From Actinomycetota bacterium (lineage in GTDB: Bacteria; Actinomycetota; Actinomycetes; JACCUZ01): a DNA stretch of 64,000 nucleotides. A program made the translations under genes and the position numbers. The stretch is from the NCBI GenBank assembly GCA_030841035.1, contig JAVEDI010000075.1, forward strand, positions 1 to 64,000, in the 5' to 3' direction. Positions 1 to 46,261 of this stretch are shown one piece after another (position 1 is the stretch's first letter; the number at the start of each line of letters is the position of its first letter). The notes under the pieces are model-generated. The model had not been told where the DNA came from and did not search any database. It saw only the letters and a program-made list of their open reading frames with translations.

Positions 1-768
1 GCCGAACAGAGCCTCACCCACCACGCCCGCACCCTCAACCCCCACCAACTCGCGGTGGCCGCCCTACACCTACGCACCCTGCTCGACCCCGAGCACGGCA
101 CCCGACTCGAGCGCGACGAACAACACCAGATCGCCCACCGCCAGTTCCGCATCCACCGCAACCCCGACGGCTCCGCCCACCTCGGCGGCTACCTGGACAA
201 AGAAGCCGCCGCGCTGCTGAGCACCGCCCTGGACCCCCTGACCAAACCCCACCCCCACACCACCACCACCACCGCAGCAGGACCCCGCCGCGACCACCGC
301 TGCCACGCCCGCCGCCAAGGCGACGCCCTGATCGAGCTGGCCCGCATCGCCCTGCGCACCGACCAGCTCCCCCAACAAGCCGGCCAACCCGTCCAACTCC
401 TGGTCGCCATCCACCTGCACGACCTCCAACAACACACCCACCCCACCACCGCGCCCACCCACCCAGCCACCCTGCACGACGGACTACCCCTCTCCGTCGC
501 CGCCGCCCGCCGCCTGGCCTGCGACGCCCAACTCATCCCCGCCGTACTCGGCACCAACAGCGAAGTCCTCGACCTAGGCCGCGCCACCCGCCTGATCACC
601 CCCCCACTACGGCGCGCCCTGGAACTACGCGACCACGGCTGCGCCTTCCCCGGCTGCACACGACCCGCCCGCTGGACCCAAGCCCACCACATCCACCACT
701 GGAGCAACGGCGGACCCACCAACCTGACCAACCTCACCAGTTGCAAGCACGACCTCTCCAAGCGCTAA
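1..768 (+). pseudogene. 5' part of a DUF222/13E12-repeat HNH endonuclease, interrupted by an insertion
   Basis: The frame is open from base 1, so the N-terminus lies outside the window, and it stops at 766-768. The protein carries the DUF222 region (FRIHRNPDG, LGGYLDKEAAALL) and the first half of the HNH domain (GCAFPGCTRPARW, AHHIHHWSNGGPTNLTNL). After about base 735 the family sequence stops and a short unrelated tail (SCKHDLSKR) leads to the stop. The rest of the HNH domain (LVLLCTTHHHTLHHHGW) is found at 3544-3768 in the same orientation, so the gene was split by the element between them. The codon choice is strikingly C-rich (CAC, CCC, ACC), unlike the neighbours. DUF222-HNH genes are multicopy in actinomycetes and their cellular role is not settled. 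Confidence 0.88.
729..734. other. Left junction of the insertion (putative att site / 6-bp direct repeat)
   Basis: CAACCT here is repeated at 3546-3551. Removing everything between the copies gives ACC AAC CTG ACC AAC CTG GTC, which restores the HNH family sequence in frame. The left copy ends where homology to HNH proteins ends. It may be the crossover core of a serine integrase or a target duplication, and short shared sequence at a breakpoint could also be chance. Confidence 0.6.
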
Positions 769-817
769 GTCAACTCTGCGGGGAGTCAGCTCCGAGTCGG
801 CTTACGCCACGATCCCC

Positions 818-2254
818 TTAGGTGCTGGGGAGAGCCTTCTGGGCGGCGTCTCGGGCGGCCCTTGCCACCTCGACAATGTATTGAACGCTCTTGAACTCGT
901 GAACTGTCTCCCAAATATGCGTCGAAAAGTTATGCATCTCCATCCAAAGCTTGTCGCCATTCGGTGCGCGAAGTTCACACGAGATGACGAATGACTCGTG
1001 TGGTGGGCGCCCACGCTCCTTCTTTTCGTTGATCCTGAAACCGTCGGCCTCGAGCGCCTCCATCACTCTTGCGGGGTTGACCATGACCACAATGACTAGG
1101 CGTCCGTGCAGGAGGTCCCACAAGGCTCCGCGCTGTATCGGGTAGAGGTAAATCGGCAGAAAAGTGACGTAGCCTCGTCCTCGCTCGTCGGGAATCTGGT
1201 TGATGATCACAGCGTTGCGTTCCGCGTTTGCGATCGACAAGATTCCGGACTCAACAAGATCGCGTGCCAGGTCGGGCCGCTTTATTTCTTCTTCGGTTAA
1301 CCCTGCCTTGTTGTAAAAGGCGGCGTATAGCATTGCGTCTTCCACAGATGTGGACGCATAGCCGTTCTTCCGGGCTTCCCGAATGATCCTTCGAAGCGAC
1401 TTCCAATGGCCATCGCCGATTGACTCCACCTGGGCCGAAAGCAACGGTGGCTCGCCAGGAATCTCGACAACTGCGTTGTCAACGGCGGCTTGGCGTGCGC
1501 GCGCACGCTCCATCCGGACCAATTGGCGGTCTAGTCGATTCTCAGAGGGAGGGGCTTGTTGCGGCCTTGCCGCAGCGCTCGTTTGAGCGAGGGTGCTAGC
1601 AGTCTTTGGCGCCACGATTGGAAGCGGTACTGGCTTGGCATCCAGGGGCGCGGGACCAGTGACCATGACCTCATAGGTGATCGTCGTCGCTCCGTCCTGT
1701 CCAGCTTCCTGAGACATCACGCGAGTCTTTACTTCGACGGTGCGGAGCTCCGAGACGGCCCGCGATTCCACTTTGACGAAAGTGACGTCACCAATGCGAA
1801 GACAGTCCGTTGCGTCGTGTAGGAGCGGAAAGCCCCATCCCTCACTGCCGAGATGATGGGCTACGGCCAAGACGCCTCTACTGCCGTGATCCTCGTGAGG
1901 GGAAACACCAATACGTTTGTTTGCCGCCAAGGAATGAATGACGTTCCTGTCTAGATCTAGAACAAGCCATGCCAAGGCATCCCCCAACTTACGGGCATAC
2001 CAAAGGGTCCGTTGCAAGCTTGCAACTTGTTCTCTCAGATGCTTACTTCTGCGTGCGGCCATCTTTGTTGCCGACAGCGTTCCTTGAATCTCGCGCTGCA
2101 GTCGCAGTAGGTCTGTCTGCAGCGTCCACACATCGTTAGCGGACTCGAACCGCCCACCCAGCAACTGAGTTGCGAGATGCTGCGTTCTGCCCAGTAGCTT
2201 TCGGTTTACCCGCGTCAGTGCCTCGGCGCTGTCCTCGTGGGCTAGGGAACTCAC
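818..2254 (-). CDS. Cargo protein of unknown function with a PD-(D/E)XK nuclease-like motif (478 aa)
   Basis: I do not recognise a named family. Residues about 40-90 look helical and possibly coiled coil. Residues 119-180 contain HEDHGSRGVLAVAHH, then HDATDCLRIGDVTF and TVEVKT, so D156 and E174-x-K176 fit the D...ExK pattern of restriction-endonuclease-fold enzymes. A Pro/Ala-rich linker (about 200-240) separates a C-terminal region (about 260-478) that is rich in aromatic and charged residues and has no motif I can name. The GTG start at 2254 is the most upstream in frame. Base composition is markedly lower in GC than the neighbours, which supports horizontal acquisition. It is the only intact gene of the element, so a selected cargo role, perhaps host defence, is plausible. 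That role is inference from a motif and a location. Confidence 0.6.
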   Translation of the reverse strand: MSSLAHEDSAEALTRVNRKLLGRTQHLATQLLGGRFESANDVWTLQTDLLRLQREIQGTLSATKMAARRSKHLREQVASLQRTLWYARKLGDALAWLVLDLDRNVIHSLAANKRIGVSPHEDHGSRGVLAVAHHLGSEGWGFPLLHDATDCLRIGDVTFVKVESRAVSELRTVEVKTRVMSQEAGQDGATTITYEVMVTGPAPLDAKPVPLPIVAPKTASTLAQTSAAARPQQAPPSENRLDRQLVRMERARARQAAVDNAVVEIPGEPPLLSAQVESIGDGHWKSLRRIIREARKNGYASTSVEDAMLYAAFYNKAGLTEEEIKRPDLARDLVESGILSIANAERNAVIINQIPDERGRGYVTFLPIYLYPIQRGALWDLLHGRLVIVVMVNPARVMEALEADGFRINEKKERGRPPHESFVISCELRAPNGDKLWMEMHNFSTHIWETVHEFKSVQYIVEVARAARDAAQKALPST

Positions 2255-2668
2255 GCGGCTTAGTCTCGCCTAGGGGATGGGCTGGATCGTGGATGCGCGG
2301 CGCACCCTTGACTTGAAGTAGCAACACAACTCGTCGTGGCTCATCGGGTCCCGAACAGTCTGGGCGTCCTTCCGATTGCGGCGGGTTGTAGGCGCGGGAG
2401 GAGCCGGTCAAGGGCGCGGAGCGGCGTAGCGGACCCCTGACGGGCGGGGGATGCGCCGGAGAGTCGCAGCGGGGAAGGGCGTCCGCATCAGCCATCGCTG
2501 GTTCTCACGGCGTGTCGCTGGTCGAGAGACTATCTGGTGGTGCATCCTGCAGGTGAGCACCCGATTTGGGCTCCCCTCTTTAAAGGCAGCGAGTTCCGGA
2601 CGATGACGCCGGACCGCACATGAGGCCGAGGGCATTCGCCCTGTCCGCCTCGTCTGCCGGAGCCCTCG
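2255..2668. other. Stretch without a supported gene inside the element
   Basis: These 414 bases separate the cargo gene from the Rep remnant. Open frames on both strands overlap one another and none has a convincing composition or a family motif. A TTGACTTGAAGTAGCAACAC segment near 2310 is AT-richer than its surroundings. It could be part of a promoter or an old origin region, but nothing decisive is visible. I see no inverted repeat strong enough to call. Confidence 0.4.
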
Positions 2669-3315
2669 GTGTCTCAGCCCTCTCCTGTTTCGCAACGCTT
2701 GTCGCGGGTCGCCCCGGCGCGCTGGCAGTTGTCGCTGTGCGCGGCTGCTGGTGAGGCGGGCGGCGGCTTCGTCGCTTCGCGGTCGTCGGACTTTCGGAGT
2801 GGTCGTGGCGCTGCCACGGATCCCGAGCGTGCTCGGGCGGAGTCGGCTCGTCGGGCGCGGACGCGGGTCCGTCGTTACTGTGCAGCCAATGGGCTGAGCC
2901 GGTTCGGCACCCTGACCTACGGTCGCCGTTCTGCACCGATCCGGAGCAGCTGCGCGGCGACATCGCCCGCTACTTCCGGCGGCTGCGGACGGTTCAGGGT
3001 GAGGGACCGCTGCCGTATGTGTGGGTGCCGGAATTCCACGCCGACGGCAAGCGATTTCACGCGCATTTCGCGGTGGACCGGTTCATCCCGCGTAGCCGGG
3101 TCGAGGCCGCCTGGGGGCACGGCTTTTCAAGATCAAGCGGCTGACGGACCAGCCGGTCGGCTCGACGTCGTGGGACGAGTCACGTCGCGCGGCGGGCTCC
3201 GTGTCGAAGTACGTGAGTAAGACGTTCACCGGGCCGCAGGTCTTCGGCCGTCAGCGGTACGGCGTGGCCGAGGGCTTCCAACCGTCGACTCAGCGGATCG
3301 CCGGAACTAGTGCGC
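2669..3315 (+). pseudogene. Frameshifted HUH-type replication initiator (Rep) remnant
   Basis: Three consecutive frames spell one protein. The first ends RFGTLTYG (about 2899-2923), resembling Rep motif 1. After a shift at about 2921-2926 the second frame reads FCTDPEQLRGDIARYFRRLR and then FHADGKRFHAHFAVDRF, which contains the H-x-H metal motif. After a second shift at 3124-3127 the third frame reads KIKRLTDQ and AGSVSKYVSKTF, with the Y-x-x-K catalytic tyrosine region. The second lesion looks like loss of one T from a T run, since TTTTT would give HGFFKIKRL. Rolling-circle Rep proteins of this kind occur on actinomycete plasmids and integrative elements. The N-terminal limit is uncertain. 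Confidence 0.68.
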
Positions 3316-3369
3316 GGCAGGCGTGCTCGCGGAAGCGGTCGCGCGGATGGGCGGGGGTCCGAGCCGACG

Positions 3370-3519
3370 GTCGTTGTCGATGTACTGCTCGGCCACGATC
3401 CAGCCCAGGCTCGCCGCCAGTCGTCGGCAGTCCTCGACCTGGCGCTTGACCCCCAACCCCGAGACCTCGATGTCGCTACTGATCCGTGCGTAGACCGCCG
3501 CCGCTCGTGGTGTCGCAAT
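3370..3519 (-). pseudogene. N-terminal stub of a large serine recombinase (integrase)
   Basis: Read on the minus strand, about 50 codons give VYARISSD, GLGVKRQVEDCRRLAASLGW and AEQYIDND. This is the start of the resolvase/integrase catalytic domain, including the Y-x-R-x-S active-site serine. After IDND the sequence changes to unrelated residues and a stop, so the rest of the domain and the whole DNA-binding region are lost. There is no good ATG/GTG start; the frame opens at 3537 and first looks native near 3519. It lies 27 bases inside the right junction, the usual position of an integrase beside its attachment site. Confidence 0.68.
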
Positions 3520-3543
3520 GAAGGGTGAGAATAACGATTAACC

Positions 3544-3768
3544 GGCAACCTGGTCCTGCTCTGCACCACACACCACCACACCCTCCACCACCACGGCTGG
3601 AGCGTGCACATCCACACCGACGGCCTACCCACCTTCCACCCACCCCCCTGGATCGACCCCCACCAACAACCCCGACGCAACCACCGACACAACCCCCTCA
3701 CCCACCCGCCCGGCGACCCACCCGACGGCGCCACCGTCCTACGTCTGCCAGTGCCCAGCCCGACGTGA
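3544..3768 (+). pseudogene. 3' part of the interrupted DUF222/HNH endonuclease gene
   Basis: The frame reads NLVLLCTTHHHTLHHHGW and continues through SVHIHTDGLPTFHPPPWIDP to a TGA at 3766-3768. This is the second half of the HNH fold (the C-x-x-HH-x(3)-H region) and the usual C-terminal tail of DUF222-HNH proteins. It has no start codon of its own. It shares the C-rich codon use of 1-734 and joins it in frame if 735-3551 is removed. Confidence 0.82.
3546..3551. other. Right junction of the insertion (putative att site / 6-bp direct repeat)
   Basis: This is the second copy of CAACCT. It marks where HNH coding sequence resumes. The serine recombinase stub ends just to its left on the opposite strand. 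Confidence 0.6.
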
Positions 3769-3821: not shown

Positions 3822-3892
3822 ACGACGAGAAGCCGTCTCGCATTGACGTAAGACACCTGCGCCGCGGGACGGGTCGGTGCCAGAGTGTGCCC

Positions 3893-4327
3893 ATGCCGGA
3901 GATCGTTCTCGAGCTGGCGGCGCGGCTGGGTGCGGCCGCGCTGCAGCACGCGCGCAGCCTCGACATCCTCGTGTCGGTGGCCGTCGTCGACGCGGGTGGT
4001 CACCTCGTGCACTTCCAGCGCATGGACGGCGCCGAGATCGCCGGACCGACCCTGGCCGTCGACAAGGCGTTCACCTCGGTGGCACACCGTGCGAGCACCG
4101 CGGAGCTGGGCCCCCTGACTCGGCCAGGCGGCCCGCTCGAAGGGATGCAGGCCAACGGCGGCGGCCGCTACGTCGTGTTCGGCGGCGGGGTCCCGCTCTG
4201 GTCAGACGGCCGCGTCCGGGCCGGCATCGGCGTGAGCGGCGGGACCGCCGAGCAGGACGCCGCCTGCGCGGAGGCTGCTGTCGCGGTGTGGCACGAACCC
4301 ACGGATCGCATCGAGGAAGGCGGCTGA
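3893..4327 (+). CDS. GlcG/HbpS family protein (PduO C-terminal-domain type)
   Basis: The protein matches the small GlcG/HbpS/PduO-C fold: LAARLGAAALQHARSL at the N-terminus, VSVAVVDAGGHLVHFQRMDGA in the middle, then GGGVPLWSDGRVRAGIGVSG and EQDAACAEAAV. Family members bind haem or corrinoid-like ligands, or are of unknown role. In pdu loci the domain forms the C-terminal part of PduO. No N-terminal cobalamin adenosyltransferase domain is present. ATG 3893 is chosen; a GTG two codons upstream (3887) is also possible. It ends in a TGATG overlap with the dehydratase gene, so the two are translationally coupled. A cofactor-related role for the B12 enzyme is inference. Confidence 0.78.
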   Translation: MPEIVLELAARLGAAALQHARSLDILVSVAVVDAGGHLVHFQRMDGAEIAGPTLAVDKAFTSVAHRASTAELGPLTRPGGPLEGMQANGGGRYVVFGGGVPLWSDGRVRAGIGVSGGTAEQDAACAEAAVAVWHEPTDRIEEGG

Positions 4328-6588
4328 TGGACCCGCTGACGACCGGCACCGACGCGCCACGCCCTGTGGGGCGCATCCGGTTCATGAACGAGCAGCGGGT
4401 CAATCTCGACGGGTTCGCCCACGAGGACGTCGAGCTCGGCCTGGTCGCTCTCTCCAGCCCGGCAGACCCCGAGCCGTCACTGGTCGTGCGCGACGGAAAG
4501 GTCGTCGAGATGGACGGCCGCGCGGCGGAGGACTTCGACGTCCTCGACGCCTACATCGCCAACCACGGCATCGACCTGTCCGTCGCCGAGGAGGCGATGG
4601 CCCTCGACGACGTCACGCTTGCGCGGCTCTTCGTCGACTTCGCCGTGCCCCGCGACGAGGTGGTGCGGCTGGTCGCCGGTACGACGCCGGCCAAGCTCGC
4701 CCGGGTGGTGGCGATGCTGCGTCCGGCCGAGCTGACGATCGCGATGACCAAGCTGCGGGCTCGTCGCACGCCGAGCAACCAGGCCCACGTCACCAACCGG
4801 CTCGACGACCCGCTGCTGCTGGCCGCGGACGCGGCCACCGCGGCGGCGTACGGCTTCCGTGAGCTCGAGACCACTGTGCCGGTGCTCGCCGACGCACCCT
4901 CCAACGCCGTCGCCGTGACGGTGGGGGCTGCCGTCGGCTCCCCCGGCGTCCTCGTGCAGTGCTCGGTCGAGGAGGCGATGGAGCTGGAGATGGGCATGCG
5001 GGGACTGGTGTCCTACGCCGAGACGGTGAGCCTCTACGGCACCGAGTCGGTGTTCGTCGACGGCGACGACACCCCGTACTCCAAGGCGTTCCTCAGCTCC
5101 GCCTACGCCAGCCGTGGGGTGAAGATGCGGGTGTCGTCGGGCGCGGGGGCCGAGGTCCTCATGGGCGGTGCGGAACGCTGCTCGATGCTCTACCTCGAGT
5201 CGCGGTGCGTGTCGCTGGCCCGCGCGATGGGTGTGCAGGGTGTGCAGAACGGCGGCATCGACGGCGCGAGCGTCGCGGGCGCAGTGCCAGCCGGGGTGCG
5301 CGAGCTGATGGCCGAGAACGTCATGGTGATGGCCCGCAACCTCGAGTCGTGCTCGGGCAACGACGCGCTCATGTCCGAGTCACACGTACGCCGCACGTCG
5401 CGCACGCTGCCGATCATGCTCGCCGGCAGCGACTTCATCTGCAGCGGCTTCGGCTCGATCCAGCGCTACGACAACATGTTCGGCCCGTCGCAGTGGAATG
5501 CCGAGGACCTCGACGACTGGCTGGTCATGCAGCGCGACTGGGGCATCGACGGTGGCCTGCGCACCGCCGACCCGCAGGACATGGAACGACTGCGGCGTCG
5601 CGCCGCGGAGGCCGTGCGCGACGTCTACGCCTGGCTCGGTCTCGCGGACTTCACCGACGAGCATGTCGAACTGGCGGTCGACGCCGTCGGCAGCAAGGAC
5701 CTGGGCGACCCGGACCCGATGGTGGTGCTCGGCGCGGCGCAAGCGATCCGCACCTCGGGGCTCGGCTCGCTGGAGGTGGCGCGCGCCCTGCTCGAGTGCG
5801 GCTACCACGTCGAGGCCGAGCGCGTGCTCGAGATGCTCGTCGCGCGGGTGCACGGTGACCACTTGCAGACCGCGGCCATCTTCGACGAGTCGATGCAGGT
5901 GCTGAGCCTGGTCACCGACCCCAACGACTACGCGGGCCCCGGCACGGGTTACGAGCCGACGCCCGCACGGCAGCGTGAGATCCACGCCATCCGTCAGGCC
6001 CGGGGCGTCGAGGACCTGCGCAAGGACCAGGAGGGGTTCGCCTCCGACGCGCTGCGCGTCGTCGGTCCCGCGGCGCCCGGCAGCGACCCCCGCGAGGTCG
6101 TCGTCGGCGTGTCCCCCGGCGTCGGGCGCACCGTGTGGCGCACGCTGTCCGGCCTGCTGGTCGTCGACGTGCTGCGCGAGCTGCTCGCGGGCCTCGAGGA
6201 GGAGGGCTGCCGGCCCCGCGTGGTGCGCGTCAACCGCACCCTTGACCTCGGGATGGTGGGGCTGACCGCCGCACGGCTGGCCGGGTCGGGCATCGGCATC
6301 GGCCTTCAGGGCAAGGGCACGGCGCTCATCCACCGTCGCGACCTGCCGCCGCTGGCCAACCTCGAGCTGTACTCCGTCGCGCCGGTCGTGACCCCTGACC
6401 TCTACCGGCTGCTCGGCAGCAACGCCGGCCGGCACGCGAAGGGCGCCACACCGGTGCCCGCGCGCAACCCCTACACGGACGAGGCGATCGAGGCCCGCTA
6501 TCACACGAGCGTCATCGCGCTCATCGCCCTCGAGCGCAGCTGCGTCGACCCGCAGGCCGGCCCCGAAGAGCTGGAGGTTGCGCCATGA
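4327..6588 (+). CDS. pduCD: Diol/glycerol dehydratase, large and medium subunits fused
   Basis: Coenzyme B12-dependent dehydratase that converts 1,2-diols (1,2-propanediol or glycerol) to aldehydes. The 753-aa protein has a PduC-like part (about 1-545) with VSSGAGAEVLMGG (about 270), LYLESRC, QNGGIDG (about 307) and ICSGFGSI (about 372). The PduD-like medium part (about 585-753) has VVVGVSPGVGRTVW, LQGKGTALIHRRDLPPL and LYRLLGSNAGRHAKG. In enterobacteria these are separate chains. The joining segment (about 545-585) lacks the amphipathic N-terminal helix that targets PduD to the microcompartment. ATG 4327 overlaps the previous stop, and the gene ends in an ATGA overlap with the small subunit. 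Substrate choice between propanediol and glycerol cannot be read from the sequence. Confidence 0.93.
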   Translation: MDPLTTGTDAPRPVGRIRFMNEQRVNLDGFAHEDVELGLVALSSPADPEPSLVVRDGKVVEMDGRAAEDFDVLDAYIANHGIDLSVAEEAMALDDVTLARLFVDFAVPRDEVVRLVAGTTPAKLARVVAMLRPAELTIAMTKLRARRTPSNQAHVTNRLDDPLLLAADAATAAAYGFRELETTVPVLADAPSNAVAVTVGAAVGSPGVLVQCSVEEAMELEMGMRGLVSYAETVSLYGTESVFVDGDDTPYSKAFLSSAYASRGVKMRVSSGAGAEVLMGGAERCSMLYLESRCVSLARAMGVQGVQNGGIDGASVAGAVPAGVRELMAENVMVMARNLESCSGNDALMSESHVRRTSRTLPIMLAGSDFICSGFGSIQRYDNMFGPSQWNAEDLDDWLVMQRDWGIDGGLRTADPQDMERLRRRAAEAVRDVYAWLGLADFTDEHVELAVDAVGSKDLGDPDPMVVLGAAQAIRTSGLGSLEVARALLECGYHVEAERVLEMLVARVHGDHLQTAAIFDESMQVLSLVTDPNDYAGPGTGYEPTPARQREIHAIRQARGVEDLRKDQEGFASDALRVVGPAAPGSDPREVVVGVSPGVGRTVWRTLSGLLVVDVLRELLAGLEEEGCRPRVVRVNRTLDLGMVGLTAARLAGSGIGIGLQGKGTALIHRRDLPPLANLELYSVAPVVTPDLYRLLGSNAGRHAKGATPVPARNPYTDEAIEARYHTSVIALIALERSCVDPQAGPEELEVAP

Positions 6589-42194: not shown

Positions 42195-42291
42195 GGCTTC
42201 CTCCAGTGCTGGGTGAGTCGTGCTCGGCCGGATCGGTGCCCACCTAACCACCGAGGCGGGGGCGCCGGCGCCGGAAGGGGACACGGCGGCA

Positions 42292-42335
42292 CCGGGAAGG
42301 TGCCGGGCCCGCGCCGGGAAGGTGCCGGGGCCGCG
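42292..42335. repeat. Two tandem 22-bp repeats
   Basis: CCGGGAAGGTGCCGGGCCCGCG (22 bases) at 42292-42313 is followed by a copy at 42314-42335 with one change. The first copy, with its left flank, can form the hairpin GGCACC/GGTGCC. The repeats lie in the leader of the luciferase-like gene. Confidence 0.75.
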
Positions 42336-42351
42336 TCGGGTTGGCCATGGG

Positions 42352-43398
42352 GTGAGCGCCCTTCCCGCCGTGCCCCTGTCCGTCCTTGACCTGGCGCCCG
42401 TGGTCGCCGGCTGCACGCCCGCCGACGCCCTGCGGGCCACCCGTCGGCTGGCCCAGCACGTGGAGCGGCTGGGTTTCACCCGGTTCTGGCTCGCGGAGCA
42501 CCACGGCATGCCGGGCGTGGCGTCGAGCGCGCCGACGGTGATCATCGCCGACGTCGCCGCGGCCACCGAGCGGATCCGGGTCGGCTCCGGCGGGGTGATG
42601 CTGCCCAACCACCCGCCGCTGGTGGTGGCCGAGCAGTTCGGGACGCTCGCCGCCCTGCATCCCGGCCGGATCGACCTCGGTCTCGGTCGTGCGCCGGGCA
42701 CCGACCAGATGACCGCGCGGGCGTTGCGGCGCAGCGCCGAGGCGCTCTCCGACGACGACTTCCCCCAGCAGCTGGGCGAGCTGGTCGGCTTCTTCCGCGG
42801 CGGCTTCCCCGAGGACCACCCCTACCGCGCGATCAAGGCGGTGCCCGGGTACGGCGAGGCGCCGCCGATCTGGCTGCTCGGCTCCAGCGGCTACAGCGCG
42901 CAGCTGGCCGGGCTGCTGGGGCTGCCGTTCGCCTTCGCCCACCACTTCATGGCGCAGAACACCTTGCCGGCGCTGGAGCTCTACCGGCGCAGCTTCCGGC
43001 CCTCCGACGTGCTGCCCGCGCCCTACGCGATGGTCGCAGCCCAGGTCATCGTCGCCGACTCCGACGAGGAGGCGCAGCGGCTGGCCGCGCCGACGGCGCT
43101 GTCGTTCCTGCAGCTGCGCCGCAACAACCCCATCCCGCTGCCCACCGTCGAGCAGGCGGCGGCCTACGAGTGGACCGAGCAGGACCGCGCGTTCGTCGCG
43201 CAGCGGCAGGCCGGCCAGGCGATCGGTGGCGTCGACACGGTGCGGTCCGCGCTGGCCACGCTGCTCGAGCAGACCGCGGCCGACGAGCTGATGGTCACGA
43301 CGATGGTCCCCGAGGCGGACGCCCGGCTGCACTCGATGACCCTGCTGCGTGGCCTGTTCGGCGAGGCCGACCTGCCGCAGGGGTGCGTCGCGGCGTAG
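42352..43398 (+). CDS. Luciferase-like (LLM class) flavin-dependent oxidoreductase
   Basis: The 348-aa protein of the MsnO8/LLM type starts [20 protein letters not shown]. It has [20 protein letters not shown] (the conserved AEHH segment), [33 protein letters not shown], and [20 protein letters not shown] for flavin binding. It is a probable FMN- or F420-dependent monooxygenase/reductase, substrate unknown. The GTG at 42352 is chosen because upstream residues come from a repeat. Confidence 0.9.
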
Positions 43399-43614
43399 GG
43401 CTGTCAGCCACGGCCTGGACAGCAGCGGTCGCACGACGTCCTGGCCTGGGCCACGTGACGGGCGAGCAGCCGTGGTCATGGATCGAGCGACATGAGGACT
43501 CGTTGCGTCGCGCGCTGCTCGAGGATGCCCGGTAGACGCCGTCTCGAAAACCCTTGTGGACAAAGGGCTTCTCGCGGATGAGTTTCGTCGGAGGTCGGGT
43601 CTAGCGTTCAGGAC
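43399..43614. other. Intergenic stretch without a supported gene
   Basis: These 216 bases hold a 26-codon frame (43455-43535, MTGEQPWSWIERHEDSL at its start) that I cannot support as a gene. Near 43550 is the imperfect palindrome CCCTTGTGGACAAAGGG, about 65 bases before the HNH gene start, which could be regulatory. Confidence 0.4.
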
Positions 43615-45063
43615 ATGGACGAGACCGCGGGCCAGCTGTGCGAGACGCTGTGGGCTGCGTCGCGCGCGGTGGCGTCGGCCCAGGCGCAGCAGCTGCGGGG
43701 CGTGGCGGCGCTGGCCGACTGGTGTGCGACGCAAGCCCGTCGCGAGCTCGCCCGCGGACCGCGGGTCAGCGGTCAGCCCGACGACGAGACCGTCATCGAC
43801 ACTTCCGTGGTCGCCGAGGTGGCCGCCACCCTCGGTGTGTCCGAGCCGCAGGCCGGCGCGATGGTCGACCTGGCCGAGCGGTTGACCCGAGTGCTGCCCG
43901 ACACGCTGTCCGCGCTCGAGGCCGGGCGGCTCGACCTGGACAGAGCACGCGCGCTGGTCGAGGCCACTGCGGTGCTCGACGACAGCACCGCGCGCGAGGT
44001 CGAGGCAGCGCTGCTGCCTCGGACCGGCGCGAGCCCGTGGGACGTCGACAGCCCGTCGCAGCGGGCGTGGCGTTCGCGGGTGTCCCGCGCGGTGCTCCGA
44101 GCCGATCTCGACGCAGCGCGTCGTCGACGTGACGCGGCGCTCACGATGCGACGGGTCCGTGCCTGGTCCACCGACGACGGGCTCGGCGTCCTGCAGGTCG
44201 TCGGGCCCCAGCACGACATCGCGATGGCCGACCGGGTCGTCGACGACCTCGCCCACGCGTGGCCGAGCGTCGACGCCGAAGGCCAGCCGGTGTCGATCGA
44301 CCAGCGTCGTGCCGACGCGCTGCTCGACCTGTTCCGGCGGGTCCGCGACCAACAGCCGTTGCCGGCCGTGCCCGTGCGCCGCGAGCGCGAGATCGGGCTG
44401 GTGCTGCACGCCGACACCTTGTTCGGCGACGGGCCGGCCGCTCGGGCTCCGGGCGAGCTGCGTGGCCTGGGCGCGCCGGCGTACGTGGATCCGAGAACTG
44501 CACGCGACACGGCGCGCCGTGACCTCGGCGCCGGGCTGCGCACCACCGTGCTGCTCACCGGGCCCGCGCAGCCAGCCGGGCCGGGCACAGGGATGGTCCA
44601 GCGGGTCCTGCGTCTGCCCCACGCACGTGAGGGCCGATGGACCAGGGAGACCCTCGTCGCCGCGGTTCGCCAAGCGCTGCGCGGCGCACCGCCGCTCGAC
44701 GTGTCGGGCTACGCACCGAGCCAGGCGATCGTCGCGCACGTCCGCGCCGCCTATCCGACCTGCACGCACCCCGACTGCCCTCGGGCCGCGCACCGCTGCG
44801 ACCTCGACCACAACGATCCGTGGCCGCGCGGCCCCACCGCCACCGACAACCTGCGACCACGCTGCCGACGCCACCACGAGCTCAAGACCCGCGGACTGCT
44901 GCGCACCCGACTCGAGCCCGACGGCAGCGTCACCACGACCTCGCTCACCGGGCGACGGCGCGCGGGCGGACCGGAGCCGCTGCCCGGTCATGGTCCAGGA
45001 GAGGGGTACGCCGACGGAGTTCGGCTTGCAGTCGGGACCGACGCGGTGGCGCGCTCGGCCTGA
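43615..45063 (+). CDS. DUF222/13E12-repeat HNH endonuclease, intact
   Basis: The 482-aa protein has a long helical DUF222 region (about 1-330) with VAATLGVSEPQAGAMVDLAE, VLPDTLSALEAGRLDLDRAR and ALLPRTGASPWDVD. A C-terminal HNH domain follows (about 385-430): CTHPDCPRAAHRCDLDHNDP and NLRPRCRRHHELK, with zinc-type cysteines and the H-N-H residues. These genes are repeated in actinomycete genomes and their substrate is unknown. Unlike the interrupted copy at 1-3768, its codon use matches the local genome, so the two are divergent members rather than a recent duplication. Confidence 0.9.
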   Translation: MDETAGQLCETLWAASRAVASAQAQQLRGVAALADWCATQARRELARGPRVSGQPDDETVIDTSVVAEVAATLGVSEPQAGAMVDLAERLTRVLPDTLSALEAGRLDLDRARALVEATAVLDDSTAREVEAALLPRTGASPWDVDSPSQRAWRSRVSRAVLRADLDAARRRRDAALTMRRVRAWSTDDGLGVLQVVGPQHDIAMADRVVDDLAHAWPSVDAEGQPVSIDQRRADALLDLFRRVRDQQPLPAVPVRREREIGLVLHADTLFGDGPAARAPGELRGLGAPAYVDPRTARDTARRDLGAGLRTTVLLTGPAQPAGPGTGMVQRVLRLPHAREGRWTRETLVAAVRQALRGAPPLDVSGYAPSQAIVAHVRAAYPTCTHPDCPRAAHRCDLDHNDPWPRGPTATDNLRPRCRRHHELKTRGLLRTRLEPDGSVTTTSLTGRRRAGGPEPLPGHGPGEGYADGVRLAVGTDAVARSA

Positions 45064-45112
45064 GATGCACGCGATGTGGTGCGGCCTTGCCCGTGCGAGC
45101 AACGTCCGCCAC

Positions 45113-46261
45113 TCACCCCAGCGCGACCGCCATCCGCCGGACCGCCTCGCGCAGCACCTCGGGGGAGGTCGCGATGTTCAGCCTGACGTGGCCCGCTCCC
45201 CCGGTGCCGAACTCCGGCCCGGGGCTGAGCGCAACGCGGCCGCGGTCGAGGAACACCGCTGCGGGATCGTCGCCCAGCCCGAGGTCGGTGCAGTCGAGCC
45301 AGGTGAGGTAGGTCGCCGGCGACGGCTGGTAGCGGACACCGGGCAGCTGCTCGCCGAGCAGCTGCGCGAGCAGCCGGCGGTTGCGCTCCAACCCGGTGAG
45401 CACCGCGGCCAGCCACTCGCCGCCATGTCGCAGCGCCGCGACGTGGGCGACCACTCCGAGATGGCTAGCGCCGTGGCTGACCTCTTCGGGCAGCTGCGCG
45501 AGATCCTTCGCCGCGCGCGACCCGGCAACCGCCATCGCGGCCTTGATGCCGGCCAGGTTCCATCCCTTCGACGCCGACAGCAGCGCGAACGCGTCCTCGG
45601 TGCCAGGCAGCGACAGGTAGGGCAGGAACTCGGTGCCGGGATCGACGACCGGCGCGTGGATCTCGTCGACCACGACGCGCACGCCGTGTCGTTCGGCCAA
45701 CGCCGCGACGGCGGTCAGGTCGTCGCGAGTGTGCACCGTGCCGGTGGGGTTGTGCGGGCTGCACAGCAGGTACGCCGCCGGGCGACCACCCTGGCGCGCG
45801 TCGACGAACGCCGACGCCAGCGCGTCCAGGTCGAGGCGCAGGTCCGGCCCCAGCGGCGCCTCGACGATCCGGCGGTCCATGTGCCCGACGAAGGCGAAGA
45901 ACGGCGGATAGACCGGCGGGTTCATCACGACCGCATCCCCGGGACCGGTGACCAGCTTGAGGACCTCGACGATCCCGAGCATGACGTCGGGCACGATCGC
46001 GGTCGCCTCGTGGTCGATCACCCACCCCCACCGGTCGGCCGCGAAGTCGACGAGCGCGTCGGCGTAGGCCTCGCCCACCGCGTAGCCGGTGTCGCCCATC
46101 GCCATCGCCTCGTTCACCGCGGCCACGATCGGCTCGGCCAGCGGCACGTCCATCTCGGCGACCCACAGCGGCAGCACGTCGGCGTCGTAGCGGCGCCACT
46201 TCATGCTGCCGCGCCGGCGAAGCTCCTCCAGGCTCAGCGCGCTCAGCGGGTCCACCGACAC
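45113..46261 (-). CDS. MalY/PatB family PLP-dependent C-S lyase or aminotransferase
   Basis: The 382-aa class I/II aminotransferase fold protein has [21 protein letters not shown] (the MalY/PatB start, residues 20-40), [37 protein letters not shown] and PLP Lys232 in [12 protein letters not shown]. Relatives split cystathionine to homocysteine or act on related thio-amino acids. It is the last gene of the pobA operon, one base after the small membrane protein gene. A link with aromatic degradation is not evident. Confidence 0.88.

Follow-up and report, generated by a model that had tools for sequence, protein, structure and literature searches.

A decayed small mobile element with a serine integrase splits a DUF222-HNH nuclease gene in two

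A DUF222-HNH nuclease gene in the analyzed window (the 64,000 nucleotides of actinobacterial contig JAVEDI010000075.1, positions 1 to 64,000) is split in two by a decayed small mobile element with a serine integrase. Window bases 735–3545 are best explained as the decayed remains of a small integrative element: recombination by a serine integrase at the Asn codon before LVLLC would have put the element into the gene, and this copy would then have lost most of its integrase and Rep and become fixed, leaving the HNH gene broken. We assign this explanation as a whole a probability of about 0.88. The features of the interrupted locus are the following.

1–735, plus strand: DUF222-HNH gene, 5′ part (Pfam DUF222, E 1.1e-27; HNH, E 1.8e-4)
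729–734, plus strand: att core, left copy, CAACCT (Asn codon AAC at 730–732)
735–749, plus strand: attL half-site, element side, CACCAGTTGCAAGC..., from comparison of 27 junctions
818–2254, minus strand: cargo ORF of 478 aa, no family match
2307–2333, plus strand: conserved 27-nt motif CTTGACTTGAAGTAGCAACACAACTCG at the cargo/backbone border, present in 21/27 elements
2669–3340 (ends approximate), plus strand: decayed Rep gene, PF23343 REP_ORF2-G2P
3370–3527, minus strand: serine integrase N-terminal stub of ~50 residues, start codon lost and the rest deleted
3528–3545, plus strand: attR half-site, element side, AGAATAACGATTAACCGG (consensus TAGCGAC in relatives)
3546–3551, plus strand: att core, right copy, CAACCT
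3546–3767, plus strand: HNH gene, 3′ part, NLVLLCTTHHH..., matching intact relatives

The contig begins at window base 1, inside the DUF222-HNH gene, and the 5′ part of the gene is therefore missing. Bases 1–735 code for DUF222 followed by the first half of the Pfam HNH domain. After 735 the left frame departs from the family, reading TSCKHDLSKR followed by a stop ending at 768, and the HNH family sequence picks up again at 3546 with N-L-V-L-L-C-T-T-H-H-H. CAACCT was found at 729–734 and at 3546–3551 in identical codon phase; the initial annotation, which put the break between NLTNL and VLLC with this hexamer at both ends, was correct to the base. A third CAACCT occurs at 720, so that the window sequence alone leaves the left end uncertain by one NLT repeat; the family register T-x-x-x-N places it at 729. 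When joined, the flanks read GGPTNLTN/LVLLCTTHHH. That joining would restore both the frame and the family sequence had been proposed from the window, and the same read-through was observed in uninterrupted relatives (GGATSRDNCVLLCGAHH in a sister genome; GGETSCANCVLLCGAHH on a different contig of the source genome), which run T-x-x-x-N-x-V-LLC unbroken across the junction as predicted. The empty site across 690–735/3546–3600 is predicted to read ...ACCAACCT(C/G)GTCCTGCTC... An intact gene at exactly the same locus was not found, the closest intact gene in the genus being only 61% identical. By themselves, six shared bases could be chance.

The Rep fragment and the integrase stub were searched over ~395 genomes of the class, and intact Rep-Int pairs were found among them. 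Scanning the named genomes once with the integrase alignment yielded 80 loci. In 31 of these, plus G202 and G219, the C-terminal half of an HNH gene begins from the same Asn codon just outside the integrase start. An N-terminal half ending at the same Asn/Asp codon was present at the far end of the element in 25 foreign loci, while 8 further foreign loci had the right half of a DUF222-HNH gene only. This search of other genomes had been suggested as a check on the claim that a serine integrase uses the DUF222-HNH gene as its attB, and the claim is borne out by 25 other genes that are split at the same codon and adjoin related integrases. The loci are mostly actinobacterial, and their hosts belong to about ten families, including Microbacteriaceae, Nocardioidaceae, Geodermatophilaceae, Intrasporangiaceae, Iamiaceae and Ilumatobacteraceae. 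Element length ranges from 3.3 to 5.9 kb with a median of ~4.2 kb, and one truncated case measures 1.2 kb. Three loci were left out: L128 and L079, where an HNH N-terminal half lies beside an integrase in the opposite orientation and the other half was not found, and G257, where the element adjoins an HNH gene that is not split at the Asn/Asp codon.

The 25 foreign loci, the window and a second copy in the source genome (contig C27) make up a set of 27 loci, in all of which (27/27) the first two bases of the Asn/Asp codon are identical from left to right; these are the only positions so conserved, and the left-right matching run at the core spans 3–12 bases. In 20/26 loci the dinucleotide that follows the Asn/Asp codon is identical on the left and the right, compared with 6.0 expected (p <= 5e-5) when left and right ends were re-paired at random between the 26 split loci, and family conservation alone therefore does not explain the core match. 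Across elements the right half-sites are TTAGCGAC-like and the left half-sites CAAGTTG-like. The window retains recognisable versions of both, its attL side being similar to the CAAGTTG of the others. Comparison of the loci directly shows the split at this codon, the duplication of the core, the conservation of the half-sites and the plan of intact relatives. In the integrase phylogeny, 27/28 HNH-flanked integrases fall in one clade of 35 (support 100/100). Sister serine integrases (L105, L106, L109, L110, L114, L142 and G001:C418) adjoin a sequence GKTTLLNCL... with a Pfam T2SSE match (E 4e-4) below the cut-off; this flank looks like the Walker A region of a TadA/CpaF-type ATPase and would be a second conserved protein-coding target. 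A distant serine integrase in Mycobacterium sp. E787 (L146) adjoins an HNH gene, with the junction at another codon, immediately ahead of KDRGCTHPGC. Within the window itself, another DUF222 gene, matching less well and diverged in its HNH region, was seen at 42226–45843 (L004), and the region directly downstream of the split gene (3887–6588) holds an HbpS-like gene followed by a fused large-plus-medium diol/glycerol dehydratase gene.

Intact members of the family are ~4 kb long and share the order attL, one to three variable cargo genes, the 27-nt motif, Rep, a convergent integrase and attR. The full-length relatives have a Rep of ~259 aa and an integrase of ~467 aa; as judged from the G336/L088 protein and an alignment of four, the full-length integrase contains Resolvase, Recombinase and Zn-ribbon domains, and the integrase profile matches solved large serine integrases. 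By sequence, Rep is of the HUH type known from rolling-circle replicons: it matches PF23343, and its HxH motif and catalytic Tyr motif YxxKYVxK are invariant in 19 proteins. Its structure model (pLDDT 73) had no PDB match at E <= 0.001, and a search of plasmids with the Rep protein gave no match.

The motif has the consensus CTTnACTTGAAnnnGCAACrnAACTCG and lies between cargo and Rep, frequently preceded by a GC-rich hairpin. In every pair of elements that carries it within alignable backbone, similarity begins at the motif or at most ~25 bases before it, with the exception of one weak match (G202/L103) starting at approximately −110; pairwise comparison of the elements revealed no pair with similar cargo. 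The motif was found in 10/390 genomes, 8 of the 10 also with a Rep match, compared with 0 for the reversed control, and it had no match in 2.9 million viral contigs. In G114 and G228 it occurs without a Rep match, and these occurrences are possibly remnants or other backbones. Its position suggests a candidate origin for Rep. Alternatives to this natural guess are a promoter, a terminator plus operator, or a transfer origin.

By raw count of matches, nine relatives have cargo that falls into anti-phage families (PADLOC, E 2.3e-7 or better). By Pfam and PADLOC these encode SIR2 proteins (L078, L123), an RT plus DUF3800 pair (L073), an AbiL-type pair (L091), AbiU/AIPR (L097), RelA/SpoT (L093), a STAND-like ATPase (L095), a TIR-like effector (L104) and a PDC-S32/AbiJ-like protein (L077); PIN_8 (L088) and DUF4062 (L074) are suggestive only. 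These matches point to a putative antiviral function of the cargo. In about half of the loci the cargo is without any match, including the 478-aa ORF of the window, for which Pfam, PADLOC, NCBIfam and PDB gave none. Relatives of this ORF, 30–38% identical over part of its length, were found on Streptomyces plasmids and in one genome of the class. The GD-x-T...E-x-K pattern noted by eye in its N-terminal half could be nuclease-like; a single-sequence structure model (pLDDT 45) was too poor for use.

Decay of the window copy is evident in both backbone genes. The Rep gene keeps the HUH motif as HAH, but has frameshifts, a change of the first Tyr of motif 3 to Ser and a lost C-terminus. The integrase stub has a Pfam Resolvase match (E 4e-4) below the cut-off and is 73% identical to the G202 integrase. 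A serine recombinase N-terminus close inside the right end had been noticed initially, and it indeed lies ~20–26 bases in on the minus strand. Because the window integrase is only a stub, its specificity is taken from its relatives. A full-length integrase of the HNH-flanking clade was not detected in the source genome, where both copies carry stubs only, and the window copy is therefore predicted to be dead, in that it should be unable to excise on its own.

The second copy, on contig C27, is informative about the history of the locus. Its left HNH flank corresponds to window 629–735 with 3/107 bases different, its right flank is the same as that of the window with 3/155 substitutions, and its backbone matches the window from 2303 onward at ~96.5% identity (37/1080 substitutions). 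The deletion that joins Rep to the integrase stub is common to both copies, whereas the cargo is different, the change starting at the att core and ending within four bases of the 27-nt motif. In C27 (L008, reverse-strand 1526–2974) an IS256-type (Mutator family) transposase is inserted after the motif, just past the window-equivalent of 2459, and an 8-base overlap (2452–2459) resembles a target duplication. Since flanks and backbone are about equally diverged, the two copies are most simply derived from one interrupted locus. Duplication or gene conversion of that locus, as opposed to two integrations, is the history we somewhat favor; it would place the site-specific event once, in a common ancestor, with cargo replaced later, and it is compatible with the integrase-mediated origin proposed above. 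The shared deletion agrees with it, as does the frequent conversion of REP13E12 genes in M. tuberculosis (PMC13061034). Duplication alone, however, does not account for a replaced cargo whose borders fall at the att core and within four bases of the motif.

The remaining alternatives concern what the element is and how it arrived. The REP13E12 repeats, or 13E12 family, are what we take to be DUF222-HNH genes, and the phiRv1 insertion site is presumably at a different codon from the Asn/Asp codon of the present elements. In M. tuberculosis, phiRv1 lies within a REP13E12 repeat and has a serine integrase (Bibb and Hatfull, 2002, as cited in PMC9317374), so that, like the present elements, it inserts into a 13E12 family member by serine integrase. 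The initial annotation had called the target not often discussed; this precedent in the literature (PMC9317374) corrects that remark, and the target gene family is not new. The window element could accordingly be read as a phiRv1-like prophage or phage remnant, with a phage-borne serine integrase using an HNH repeat gene as attB, and the E787 integrase next to an HNH gene could be added in favor. We regard this as very improbable: the elements are ~4 kb with no structural genes recognised, integrases in phage records and viral contigs are at best ~34–39% identical, the 27-nt motif is absent from the viral contigs, and the E787 junction is at a different codon. A regulated switch, in which the HNH gene is rebuilt by programmed excision, as happens when XisF excises the fdxN element, has a similarly slight chance. 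Excision would be predicted to restore the frame, and XisF is the best NCBIfam model for one relative, although far below its cut-off; on the other hand, only integrase stubs remain in both copies of the source genome, the cargo varies, and relatives hold many paralogues of the target gene, fitting a dispensable site. The comparative data already contradict the least probable reading of all, an unrelated transposon or rearrangement with CAACCT at both ends as coincidence or ordinary target-site duplication, for although six bases are short and CAACCT occurs also at 720, the same codon is used in 25 other genes beside related integrases, with conserved half-sites and a permutation p <= 5e-5.

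For the preferred reading, integration by a serine integrase of the element's own family, a life cycle can be outlined. Int would recombine a circular attP with the attB in the HNH gene, with strand exchange probably spanning bases 1 and 2 of the Asn/Asp codon. Neither an excised circle nor an attP was seen. Rep may nick at or near the 27-nt motif and replicate the excised circle. As no transfer machinery of the element's own was seen, spread would be via the transfer machinery of some helper. The cargo may pay the element's way, often as a small anti-phage system.

Several known systems share parts of this plan. Large serine integrases (Bxb1, TP901-1, A118, phiC31) have the same order of Resolvase, Recombinase and Zn ribbon and a short core crossover, whereas the present ones reach at best the ~34–39% identity given above to integrases of phage records and viral contigs, and are not phage-borne in the examined loci. 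In SCC elements a Ccr serine recombinase acts on a conserved target gene and the cargo is variable, as in the present elements; however, SCC Ccr models match the present integrases weakly, far below family cut-offs, and host phylum, target gene and gene content are different. phiRv1 is prophage-like or PICI-like (PMC10654092), in contrast to the ~4-kb Rep-Int organization found here. AICEs are actinobacterial elements combining an integrase, a replication protein (often rolling-circle) and an FtsK-like Tra, some with serine recombinases and protein-coding targets (PMC3218068). They are defined by the FtsK/SpoIIIE Tra, and none was seen in cargo domain scans and gene lists of the present elements, whose Rep matches PF23343. 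Hitcher or mobilizable elements and phage satellites (PMC11389934) are likewise small, lack recognised transfer genes and are presumably helper-dependent, but no relaxase or packaging feature was identified in the present elements, where Rep could double as a relaxase. Among integrase targets, Durrant et al. (2022; PMC10083194) stressed competence genes and a prolyl isomerase, with no HNH gene in the main text. Searches of the open-licence literature found no paper on DUF222 together with a serine integrase, and none on the 13E12 repeat, prophage and integrase together; the element family and its cargo pattern appear undescribed in that literature.

The family of compact Rep-Int elements that use one codon and carry variable, often defence-like cargo is a more interesting result than the split gene. 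The border between cargo and backbone is sharp in element after element, which raises the question of how cargo is exchanged. Tentatively, and at clearly less than even odds, we propose an undescribed ~4 kb non-phage family that shuttles small anti-phage systems among actinobacteria via one DUF222-HNH codon, with cargo swapped as a cassette from core to motif. If this holds, the window and C27 pair, which agree in flanks and backbone and differ in cargo, would document one such swap. For a widespread, apparently undescribed class of actinobacterial mobile elements, the integration site can be read from sequence alone, and each intact member offers a natural set of attB, attP and integrase together with a fair antiviral candidate in its cargo gene; many of these genes are without a known domain.
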